Shown piece after piece: positions 914 through 4,038 of a DNA stretch of 10,852 nt. The notes under the pieces are model-generated. The model saw only the letters and a list, made by a program, of their open reading frames with translations. It had not been told where the DNA came from and did not search any database. The stretch's first letter is position 1. The number at the start of each line of letters is the position of its first letter. The translations under genes were made by a program, and so were the position numbers. The DNA is from Marinospirillum sp. (GTDB taxonomy: Bacteria > Pseudomonadota > Gammaproteobacteria > Pseudomonadales > Halomonadaceae): positions 1-10,852 of the forward strand of contig NZ_JACUUA010000120.1 in NCBI RefSeq assembly GCF_014859565.1, read 5' to 3'.

Positions 914-1447
914 TTATGTTTTTTTAAGGGCTTTGATCGCCTCATTGTAGACGCGGATCAGTTCACTCATTAGGTTTTCTGTATCCAAGTCATCCGGGCT
1001 ATCGGTAATATAACGCTGTAAAAACTCAGCAACCGCTGGCTCCAGCTCTTCTTTATGCTCTTCCAGGTAATCCTCTAACGTATCCAGAGAAAAACGTTCG
1101 TAACGGCTTTCTATAGCTTTAGTAACATTTTCTTTGACCTCTCTGACTCTCCCTCTACGGCTCGCATCCTTAACCTTTGCGACTTGTGTAAAGGTTTCCC
1201 TCAAGTAGTCACCATAGCCATCATTGATAAGGCTAGATATTTTTTTATTCCCCGAGTATGACTTTGGAATATAAATATCAACCTCTGTATCAGCATCTCC
1301 AAAAACTTGCTCTTTCCACTGCTTGAGAGTACATGATTCATCTATCTCTGGCAGATTGCCTACCTCTTCAAGAATTTCATTGTCGACATACACCAAAATC
1401 CCATACTTCTCTAACATTCGATAAACAGGGTTGTACTTAGCCAACAT
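914..1447 (-). CDS. Unknown protein, last gene of the BREX operon (177 aa)
   Basis: I do not recognise this family. The protein begins MLAKYNPVYRMLEKYG, has a middle part rich in acidic residues with a likely beta segment (VDIYIPKSYSG, about 56-66), and then a charged, probably helical C-terminal half (about 83-177) with a basic patch near 97-108 (SRRGRVREVKEN). No membrane segment or signal peptide is seen. An ATG start at 1447 is chosen over an upstream TTG at 1468 because AGAGGG lies 4 nt before the ATG. This start overlaps the end of the preceding gene by 11 nt, which suggests translational coupling and joint action. Position after brxL points to a BREX accessory role or to a small separate defence or toxin-antitoxin-like pair; both are inference from context. 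Confidence 0.8.
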   Translation of the reverse strand: MLAKYNPVYRMLEKYGILVYVDNEILEEVGNLPEIDESCTLKQWKEQVFGDADTEVDIYIPKSYSGNKKISSLINDGYGDYLRETFTQVAKVKDASRRGRVREVKENVTKAIESRYERFSLDTLEDYLEEHKEELEPAVAEFLQRYITDSPDDLDTENLMSELIRVYNEAIKALKKT

Positions 1448-1973
1448 TAAGCCCTCTTTCAAATTCAATTAAAGCATAATAAAGGTTGTAACCGGTATGA
1501 CGAACCTTATCCACCTCAGCATCGAGCTTTTCAGAACAGGCTTCGTAAAAGTCAGAGTTAACCCCGTCGATTTCCACTCTATCGAATCGAGATATAATCG
1601 GTCTTTCGTCGAGAATCGCCTCTAAAACCTGTCGATCTTCTTCAAAGTAACCGGCGAGAATCGGCCTCCGAACTTCTCCGCTTCTAGCAATTTCTACATG
1701 CTTCAATATTTCTTCCATTTTTTCAAATAAATGATAATTCCATTCCTGAACAGCATCACCGAGCTTGGGAATCCCTACAAACATATATTCCAGCAGGTAA
1801 AGGTGTGCTGCCAGTTCTTTAACTCTTTCTTCTAGTGTCTCTTCATTCGTGATGTGCGGATGAACTTCTTTTGGCTTTTCTACAGCCAACCTCAAATAAC
1901 AGTCCTTATTTTTTAGTTTTGGTTTGACTTCCAAAAGCAGGTTGGGCTTTGTTTTTCTGGCTCCTGGTTTCAT
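1437..1973 (-). CDS. Unknown protein downstream of brxL (178 aa)
   Basis: I do not recognise this family. A basic N-terminus with many Lys and Arg (about 1-36) is followed by a mostly helical body. That body includes a hydrophobic helix-like stretch around 53-68 (ELAAHLYLLEYMFVG) and an aromatic-rich tail (GYNLYYALIEFERG, about 161-174). No catalytic signature stands out and there is no clear membrane segment. An ATG at 1973 is preferred to a TTG at 1997 because AAGGGG (1980-1985) lies 6 nt before the ATG, while nothing like it precedes the TTG. With the ATG, the gene starts 16 nt after the brxL stop. It overlaps the next gene by 11 nt, so the two probably form one translational unit. The local sequence looks richer in A+T than brxL or pglZ, which may mean separate acquisition. 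Confidence 0.8.
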   Translation of the reverse strand: MKPGARKTKPNLLLEVKPKLKNKDCYLRLAVEKPKEVHPHITNEETLEERVKELAAHLYLLEYMFVGIPKLGDAVQEWNYHLFEKMEEILKHVEIARSGEVRRPILAGYFEEDRQVLEAILDERPIISRFDRVEIDGVNSDFYEACSEKLDAEVDKVRHTGYNLYYALIEFERGLNVG

Positions 1974-1989
1974 TACTATCCCCTTCAGC

Positions 1990-4038
1990 TCACTCAACCA
2001 ATGATTTTAATAAAGCATCTCGCGCATCCTGATAAAACTGAATATCAATTTTAGTTGCCATGTTATCAGATAGGTCGTACAACTGCCTGCGAGCAGCGAC
2101 AGGCATTAATAAGGTGCTGGCTCCCTTTTCAATAGCCAACTCTGCGATATTGACAGCGCTATTGATGGACTCTATCGAGCCACCCAAATTGATTTCACCG
2201 ACAACAATCAAGCCTCCTTTTACGGACTTTTTAAGCAAGCTGCTGCACATGGCGACCAGCGACGCAACGCCGAGCTTAGCTCCTTTCTTAGCCGCATCAA
2301 AAGCTCTTAGCTGAACAGTAAACTCATGAGCACGCGGGTCACGATCACCTATGAGCTGCATGGATCGGGCATACAGATTTTGCTCGGCATAGCGCAGCGA
2401 CTCCTTGAATGCCGGTGGAGCCGGGGTATTTAAGATTTTAACACCAGAGCCTGGGCCCTCATTAACCTCTATCCGGTAAAGCCCAGCATTATCATCAAAA
2501 TTATTCCCCCCCTCACTGATTGACCAAATTTGCCCTGGCTCTAAGGGGTCATCACCAATTTCATTGTCAGCTCTTAACTCGGGTGTAGCGACAAATTTTT
2601 CTATGCCATCATCACCAATAAAATAGCTGAAATGGGTATTACGAAACTCTGCTGCACCGACTCTTTTTTGCTGCTCCTTCACCCGACGCCTCACCTCCAG
2701 CCCCAAACGGGTCGCCCATTCGAGGTCCTCGTCTGAAGCCAGCGCGTCCGAGCTTGGGTACATCAGTTTGAGCAAGCCAGAAACTGTTTTGTTGACGGCA
2801 TTGGTATCACGGCCACTTAAAGCACCGCCCAGGTGAACACGGTTTTGCATAGCCGATACGCGACTCTCAAAGCGCAGGCGACTCATGCATTCCGAAAAGA
2901 AATCACTCACCAAACCAAAGTGATCTGTCGTCAGCTCCTTCGTCATCTTGGGTACATCCCAACCTGGCAGATAGCAATGAATTCGGTCCATCCAGGCAGT
3001 GTCATCGCGCATTTCTTGCGGCAGAGGCCCAAACAAATGGCCCACTCGCTGCTGGTGCTCAACATCAACTTCAAAGTTCCCTACAAAGACCATGGAGCCA
3101 TCTGCTCTTATGCTTTCCTTGCCTCGGCTGAACTCACCTGATTCCATATAACCTTTCATAATGTTGATGCCTTCTTTGGTATCAAAACTGATACCGCTGA
3201 CCTCATCAAAACAGACCACATCGTACTGGCACACCAATCCGCGTTGCCCAGAGGCATTGTTAACAAACATCTTGGCAATCGTGGCTTTGCCACCCGATAT
3301 TAAGTGCGCGTAGGGCGAAACCTGTTGGAAGAGGTGACTTTTACCGGTTCCTCTTGGCCCCAGTTCAACCAGGTTATAATTACGCTCAACAAAGGGCACC
3401 ATTCGCAGCAGTACCGCATCTTTTTGCCGAGGGTCAAGCACCTCTGGCTCCAAGCCAATTGAACGCAATAAAAAATCCCGCCACTCATCACTGCTAAAGT
3501 GGCTGCGAGCTTCAGCCATCACATCCAGGACATTGCGTTTTGACATTTGGATGGGACGAAGATCAGCGACACCAAACGCATTACCTTTTTCTTCAGCGAT
3601 CACCGAGTCATATTCCAGAGTGACTTCCGCATAAAAGCCCCCTGTCAGAAGCCGCTCGTTGTCATCAACGGTCTTGTCTGCAATACGTACACGGTTTAAA
3701 TTCAAGCTGGGCAAGGTGGCGAGATAGCAGCCCTCTTTTTCAACAAAACGCACACTGACAATATCAATCAGCTTGGCTGCACCCGTCTTGTAAGCACGCG
3801 CCTTGAACAACTCTTCTTCGCCAGCTCTGACTGTTCTGGATGAAAGTTGACGCTCAACTATTTCTAATCCTTCATCAATTTCTTCAGGGTCAGTTGAAGC
3901 GCAATAGCGGCCCAGCATGAACTCAACGACATAAGTTGGAACCGGAAATTGGCGCGCAAAAGTCCTTACCAAGTCTTTGCGGACGATATAACCTTCAAAA
4001 ACTTCTGCTGCCTTCAGATCCAAAACATCCAGTTCCAC
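1990..4038 (-). CDS. brxL: BREX protein BrxL, AAA+ ATPase with a Lon-like C-terminal domain
   Basis: BrxL is a ring-forming, DNA-binding AAA+ protein needed for phage exclusion in type I BREX. At 682 aa the protein has the usual length. The N-terminal part (about 1-200) includes VPTYVVEFMLGRYCAS, typical of the family. The ATPase domain shows Walker A GPRGTGKS (227-234), Walker B VVCFDEV (274-280, D278/E279), a sensor-1-like Asn in FVGNFEV (N321) and DRIHCYLPGW (351-360). The C-terminal Lon fold spans about 570-682 (VVGEINLGGSIESI). The segment that in Lon carries the catalytic Ser reads KLGVAS, and the usual Lys position near NSAVNIAE is not Lys, so protease activity is unlikely. The start is a GTG at 4038 with a strong GGAGGAG (4046-4052) 7 nt away. 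The gene follows pglZ by 21 nt. Confidence 0.95.
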   Translation of the reverse strand: MELDVLDLKAAEVFEGYIVRKDLVRTFARQFPVPTYVVEFMLGRYCASTDPEEIDEGLEIVERQLSSRTVRAGEEELFKARAYKTGAAKLIDIVSVRFVEKEGCYLATLPSLNLNRVRIADKTVDDNERLLTGGFYAEVTLEYDSVIAEEKGNAFGVADLRPIQMSKRNVLDVMAEARSHFSSDEWRDFLLRSIGLEPEVLDPRQKDAVLLRMVPFVERNYNLVELGPRGTGKSHLFQQVSPYAHLISGGKATIAKMFVNNASGQRGLVCQYDVVCFDEVSGISFDTKEGINIMKGYMESGEFSRGKESIRADGSMVFVGNFEVDVEHQQRVGHLFGPLPQEMRDDTAWMDRIHCYLPGWDVPKMTKELTTDHFGLVSDFFSECMSRLRFESRVSAMQNRVHLGGALSGRDTNAVNKTVSGLLKLMYPSSDALASDEDLEWATRLGLEVRRRVKEQQKRVGAAEFRNTHFSYFIGDDGIEKFVATPELRADNEIGDDPLEPGQIWSISEGGNNFDDNAGLYRIEVNEGPGSGVKILNTPAPPAFKESLRYAEQNLYARSMQLIGDRDPRAHEFTVQLRAFDAAKKGAKLGVASLVAMCSSLLKKSVKGGLIVVGEINLGGSIESINSAVNIAELAIEKGASTLLMPVAARRQLYDLSDNMATKIDIQFYQDARDALLKSLVE

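Follow-up and report, generated by a model that had tools for sequence, protein, structure and literature searches.

Directly behind brxL, the last core gene of a type I bacteriophage exclusion (BREX) operon in Marinospirillum sp., lie two small overlapping genes, here called A and B, that may form a two-gene cargo unit: a predicted nucleic-acid-binding accessory layer of phage defence beside the BREX core. This reading, to which we give a probability of roughly one in three, concerns contig NZ_JACUUA010000120.1 of assembly GCF_014859565.1, whose 10,852 nucleotides (nt) are called the window below. Directly observed were a tight gene order, a distinct base composition, the lack of a match to any family, variability of the place behind brxL in related loci, and a defence-island home for the one relative of B with readable surroundings. 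The features of the A-B region are as follows.

1990..4038, minus strand: brxL, last core gene of the type I BREX operon, 682 amino acids (aa); PADLOC BrxL E 1.2e-295, Pfam BrxL_ATPase
1974..1989, minus strand: 16-nt gap from the brxL stop to the start of A, with an AAGGGG ribosome-binding-like stretch; read from the sequence
1437..1973, minus strand: gene A, 178 aa from ATG; supported by its open reading frame, composition, start context, relative P0001 and a structure model
1437..1447, minus strand: the last 11 nt of A overlap the start of B; read from the sequence
914..1447, minus strand: gene B, 177 aa from ATG; supported by its open reading frame, seven relatives, a distant Marinomonas algicola homologue and invariant residues

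Both genes share the strand of the whole BREX operon, and the coordinates, lengths, gap and overlap given for them in an earlier note on this DNA were exact. Purine-rich Shine-Dalgarno-like stretches precede both starts (AAGGGG for A, AAGAGGG for B), and the overlap is compatible with coupled translation. The earlier impression that the pair is richer in A+T than the core also held: the GC fraction is 0.408 for A and for B against 0.486–0.537 for the other six genes. Of 139 overlapping 540-bp segments over 1990–10852, not one was as GC-poor (minimum 0.456). Synonymous codon choice in A departs from that of the core genes (z -2.99) and in B does not (z -0.6); this evidence is weak, since the GmrSD gene (-2.1) and pglX (+3.55, itself in the reference set) vary too. 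A scan of 400–2100 for promoters and terminators gave no clear excess over shuffled sequence.

Relatives of the two proteins were few. A database of 5.8 billion proteins, grouped into clusters at 90% identity, yielded a single relative of A (P0001; 87% identical, full length, eight member sequences on 11 contigs). A first search with B returned P0003 (79% identical, eight members on two contigs) and P0004, a 103-aa fragment; a profile search, which scored the 7,993 candidates sharing most words and so may have left further relatives uncounted, added P0008–P0012, giving at least seven relatives besides B (eight rows with B). Two B-family rows carry Marinomonas names, P0010 being from Marinomonas piezotolerans. 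Because 87% identical A and 79% identical B proteins exist on other contigs, both frames look like real coding sequence. Viral contigs and phage records held no credible relative of A, B or three B relatives, with partial matches at E≥3 only. Scans of genome contigs likewise found no relative of A or B, which is weak evidence because each scan used two short peptide patterns and P0010 exists publicly. The B query carried one extra codon ahead of its ATG in the family scans, the first protein-database search, one viral-contig scan and the plasmid tblastn search.

As the earlier note had supposed, neither protein fits a described family: no profile in Pfam, NCBIfam, PADLOC or PHROGs matched A or B significantly, and PADLOC (version 2.0.0, of 2023, so that later-described systems fall outside its coverage) returned no family for either at E up to 10. 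When the nine members of the B alignment were scanned against Pfam, PADLOC and PHROGs, all matches were short or resembled coiled coils; those in PADLOC were scattered and weak (best 3.2e-4), with no family in more than four members. Besides coiled-coil-type matches, two weak candidates for B were set aside: baeRF_family8 (E 0.006; 16.9 bits against a cut-off of 27) and phrog_10722, of no known function, which matched four alignment members at E 5e-4 or weaker and spanned about 35 residues in three of the rows. A clear match to a housekeeping family, a result that would have told against a defence role, was not found.

The place behind brxL is variable in related operons. We surveyed 16 loci with a BrxL 63–89% identical to that of the window (L002–L011, L013–L018), excluding L012 at 43%. 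Neither A nor B occurred in any of the 16, and nine carried another same-strand open frame of at least 80 aa starting within 210 nt of the brxL stop (at 70, 5, 203, 46, 59, 126, 18, 5 and 209 nt). An 82-aa frame overlapping the brxL stop in L013 is not among the nine, as no gene is annotated at that point in its record. For the remaining six loci the nearest listed frame was on the opposite strand (L002, L008, L014, L016, L017) or 1,234 nt away (L018). The ten proteins from these nine loci included an Mrr-type nuclease that contains HARE-HTH and, next to it, a weakly matched ATPase, and further Pfam matches were to Schlafen-type, DUF2779, McrB-like AAA, HEAT-repeat and Sel1-repeat proteins and, below threshold, to DUF5655; two had no Pfam match. 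PADLOC families among them were Mrr-type/PDC-S02 with its ATPase neighbour (L004), PDC-S18 (L011) and PDC-S14 (L015). In L014 an McrBC pair converges on brxL.

The only B relative with readable surroundings also sits among defence genes. WP_191603754.1, on Marinomonas algicola plasmid NZ_CP061942.1 (locus L001), was found in a 7.3-Gb collection and is 26% identical to B over 94% of B (tblastn E 6e-8); pairwise comparison and profile search agree that it is homologous to B over its whole length. Upstream of it lie hsdM, hsdS and hsdR, then a gene whose JAB match is below threshold (E 0.13), and McrBC, an HNH gene and a WYL regulator are upstream too. The opposite result, homologues lying mainly away from defence genes, was not found; the one readable B locus is a defence island. 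Because the place behind brxL is variable (none of 16 loci with A or B, nine of 16 with another frame) and the Marinomonas relative lies near restriction genes, the pair looks like defence-island cargo rather than a part of the BREX core.

A different role, as dedicated BREX partners, would make A and B products of the same transcript as the core that take part in BREX methylation or exclusion, perhaps by regulating BrxL or serving as its adaptors. The 16 nt between brxL and A and the shared strand of the whole operon are in its favour, and partial text of PMC9122601 reports that brxS and brxT, beside a type I BREX, are needed for host methylation. We nevertheless consider it improbable. Among 72,556 plasmid records searched with tblastn (E≤10; BrxL cut-off E≤1e-50), 297 carried BrxL, at least 60% identical in seven of them. 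A had no match in any of the plasmid records, and B matched only the Marinomonas plasmid, which lacks BrxL, and a Sinorhizobium plasmid over one-third of its length at E 4. A 50-position match to B on the L014 plasmid (E 0.029) came from a whole-record search, lies away from the BREX locus and was not counted. Since no A and no credible B occurs among the BrxL-bearing plasmid records, the pair is, as judged from these comparisons, not a regular BREX component; an obligatory one would be expected in the majority of type I BREX loci whose BrxL is close, and the pair was absent from all 16. The earlier suggestion of a dedicated BREX accessory pair has no support other than location.

Equally improbable, in our estimate, is that A and B serve the maintenance or transfer of a mobile element carrying the island, reached their place by chance and have no anti-phage action. 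An apparent tRNA 3' end at the start of the window, about 870 nt from the end of gene B, speaks for such a role, as do the plasmid location of the B relative and the PcfJ-like gene downstream of it. Against it stand the same-strand spacing with brxL, the fact that neither A nor B significantly matched a plasmid, phage or integration family, and the lack of a credible relative in viral contigs and phage records. tRNA genes are frequent insertion sites of integrated elements.

Still less probable is a toxin-antitoxin or guard pair, in which one product would be poisonous and the other would restrain it until a phage disturbs the core. Two short overlapping genes in a defence island would suit this, short overlapping gene pairs being a common toxin-antitoxin layout. 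However, Pfam and NCBIfam recognised no toxin or antitoxin domain in A or B, and no HEPN-type motif (R-x4-6-H) rises above chance in A: its one Rx6H, present in P0001 too, compares with 1.16 expected per shuffled protein. A and B are also longer than most type II toxin-antitoxin genes, and no A was detected beside the B relative of Marinomonas or elsewhere on its plasmid, which weakens the guard that the earlier note had entertained. That A and B are readthrough or decaying sequence without function, as low GC and very few relatives could hint, is highly improbable given full-length relatives that are 87% and 79% identical and another that matches 94% of B at 26% identity, all with intact frames.

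The features of protein A fit a bundle with a flexible nucleic-acid-binding tail. Its residues 1–40 carry a net charge of +7 (isoelectric point 10.0) and the same stretch of P0001 carries +8, in agreement with the basic N-terminus that the earlier note had pointed out. The tail matches between the two at 25 of 38 positions and the rest at 131 of 140, so that in the two known members the charge of the tail is kept while its sequence diverges; it is because the tail is basic in both members despite this low match that a nucleic-acid-binding role fits. The structure model, built from two sequences, is a four-helix bundle (helices 44–64, 69–98, 103–122 and 140–177; predicted local distance difference test score, pLDDT, 70.5; predicted template-modelling score, pTM, 0.66) in which residues 1–40 are of low confidence and form a predicted disordered basic tail. 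A fold search against the Protein Data Bank and a viral library gave no match at E≤0.001, and the sequences of solved structures gave nothing credible, the best row being a TetR-type regulator at E 0.34. A hemerythrin-like metal site, hinted at by YtfE rows, was dropped after the sequence was read by eye for a His/Glu pattern. Avd of diversity-generating retroelements and S23-type four-helix proteins may have no more than the common arrangement in common with A (identity 9–13%), since de novo designed bundles and plant inhibitors match its fold as well or better.

Protein B consists of a conserved N-terminal region with a TxKQWK motif, a variable-length linker and a helical C-terminal region. 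Besides M1, the residues invariant across the eight full-length members are R10, L12, K14, Y15, G16, T40, K42, Q43, W44, K45, F49, Y59, S71, L73, L124, E141, F142, L163 and Y167; D126 and D155 are kept in seven of the eight. No histidine or cysteine is invariant in the family and E141 is the single invariant acid among the full-length members. Because the invariant residues are mostly basic, aromatic or hydrophobic, with one acid and no His or Cys, binding is a better guess for B than catalysis. The middle segment varies most (mean pairwise identity 0.31, against 0.48 for the N-terminal and 0.44 for the C-terminal region) and is lengthened by a coiled-coil-like stretch in Marinomonas-type members. 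The basic patch proposed earlier for B was recovered at residues 81–120 (unaligned numbering), with a net charge of +5 in B and +1 to +4 in six of the seven other full-length members. The structure model of B (pLDDT 55, pTM 0.38) was too poor for it or its fold search to be used; among sequences of solved structures nothing was credible, the best row being an engineered protein at E 0.0012. No relation to A was detected for B or for the two genes flanking the Marinomonas relative of B.

In the cargo-unit reading, A and B would be made in step through the 11-nt overlap. A would be a helical bundle that grips DNA or RNA with its flexible basic tail, and B an adaptor or sensor rather than an enzyme, as its conserved R10, K14-Y15-G16, T40-K42-Q43-W44-K45, F49, Y59 and E141 may indicate. 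The complex could sense some property of incoming nucleic acid, or of the way it replicates, and then block it, as a backup to BREX when the core is inhibited by phages. In the parts of PMC12839542 available, auxiliary and backup effectors beside BREX cores are described as a general pattern, which we count in favour of this reading. The separate small defence module proposed in the earlier note keeps its support from the lack of a family, the odd composition, the variable place and the defence-island B relative, this last at one locus. A bolder and more doubtful version would make A-B a new two-gene anti-phage system, composed of two undescribed families and acting as a fail-safe for BREX behind brxL; here a B-type recognition protein, which would also guard the Marinomonas restriction-modification island, would be joined with a tailed helical-bundle A.

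Several observations weigh against a nucleic-acid-binding defence unit. The whole proteins are acidic (net charge -7 for A, -12 for B), and the 81–120 stretch, net basic in the seven other full-length members of the B family, has a charge of -6 in P0011. Profile and fold searches brought up no domain or fold linking A or B to nucleic acid or defence, and fold re-alignment of A returned generic helical bundles only, including YtfE, Avd and designed proteins. Outside the window, a defence context for the B family comes from one locus. As no A was detected on NZ_CP061942.1, the partnership with A is apparently not obligatory for B; searches of whole records for A had no positive control among the records, and an A profile run over 18 loci including the window recovered A from the window only. 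Furthermore, PADLOC assigned a family at E≤1e-5 to four of the ten proteins behind brxL, from three of the nine loci. The place is therefore not limited to known defence genes, six of the ten having no such family.

At the Marinomonas locus, direct repeats of 81 nt, 72% identical to each other (L001 19879–19959 and 20605–20685), bracket the B relative, which suggests that it arrived as a one-gene insert. Both repeats read on the opposite strand as similar C-terminal protein ends; they could mark the boundary of an insertion or be scars left where a gene was replaced. Among the plasmids, 209 bases lying downstream of the relative matched nothing but their own record. Behind the relative (L001 21098–24461) lies a tightly spaced group of three genes, beside the restriction island, for a 256-aa unknown, a PcfJ-like protein and a tubulin/FtsZ-like GTPase (PF00091 E 3.9e-32).

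The remaining genes of the window belong to the host operon, identified by PADLOC and NCBIfam as type I BREX with pglX (C-terminal part), pglZ and brxL in order on one strand, or occupy the gap between pglX and pglZ.

4060..6378, minus strand: pglZ, type B of BREX type 1; NCBIfam NF033450 E 1.3e-273
6409..7116, minus strand: DUF4276 protein (HEC-01B-like), cargo of the pglX-pglZ gap; Pfam and PADLOC matches
7077..8180, minus strand: AAA_21 / OLD-like ATPase (HEC-01A-like), cargo of the same gap; Pfam and PADLOC matches
8298..10013, minus strand: GmrSD-type type IV restriction enzyme (GmrSD_N + GmrSD_C), BrxU-like, cargo of the same gap; Pfam and PADLOC matches
10010..10852, minus strand: C-terminal part of pglX, cut by the contig end; PADLOC PglX E 5.4e-146, profile positions 839–1121

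Among known systems, the auxiliary genes of type I BREX islands are the nearest parallel, as extra defence genes inside or directly beside the core operon. One such gene is brxU/GmrSD in pEFER, and in the window, likewise, a GmrSD-type gene and an OLD-like ATPase accompanied by DUF4276 stand between pglX and pglZ. Available parts of PMC12839542 list nuclease and OLD-ATPase effectors as BREX auxiliaries, and its main text contains no mention of DUF4276 or HEC-01. Unlike these auxiliaries, A and B lack any recognised domain, be it a nuclease, an ATPase or another, and occur in none of the 16 related loci. The brxS and brxT genes of pEFER resemble them as accessory, poorly understood type I BREX genes, but lie upstream of the core rather than behind brxL; they are set apart here by description, not by sequence, BrxS being a putative IS3-family transposase according to part of PMC8565348. 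The Marinomonas protein shares with B its homology and a defence island, and differs in lying behind type I restriction rather than BREX, in its coiled-coil-like insertion, in the lack of a detectable A and in its position between 81-nt repeats. The titles and abstract openings listed on BREX accessory genes describe no such gene pair, and a search of the open literature, with supplementary files outside it, found no paper naming WP_191603754, DN730_00150 or DSY85_08590.

Because the position behind brxL behaves as an exchangeable one, genes found there are candidates for new defence functions, and A-B is one such pair, for which hardly any relatives are known. Through the B family, a BREX island is connected to a type I restriction island. 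If A-B does protect against phages, two protein families would be added to the defence catalogue, and BREX islands would be seen to recruit rare add-ons.

The gap between pglX and pglZ (6409–10013) is variable as well. Here it holds the GmrSD-type type IV enzyme and the HEC-01A/B-like pair; elsewhere, by the records' own annotation, it holds HNH and DarT-like genes (Deinococcus) or an AAA ATPase and a restriction gene (Haliscomenobacter, Runella). Since the same gap carries other restriction or defence-type genes in related loci, the BREX operon has, on this comparison, two variable slots.

At the other end of the window, positions 1–40, where the contig begins, look like the 3' half of a tRNA gene, with T-arm, acceptor strand and CCA, perhaps of tRNA-Pro. 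ARAGORN reported no tRNA in the window, as expected for a cut gene. Given this remnant, the BREX island may adjoin a tRNA. Between the tRNA end and gene B, positions 83–310 encode a fragment of a YgjP-like metallopeptidase (PF01863 positions 93–148 of 207, E 1.7e-13), a decayed or truncated gene. Finally, in the BREX loci of the Deinococcus plasmids L014 and L015, genes for DarT-like ADP-ribosyltransferases lie between pglZ and the gene for the DNA methylase.

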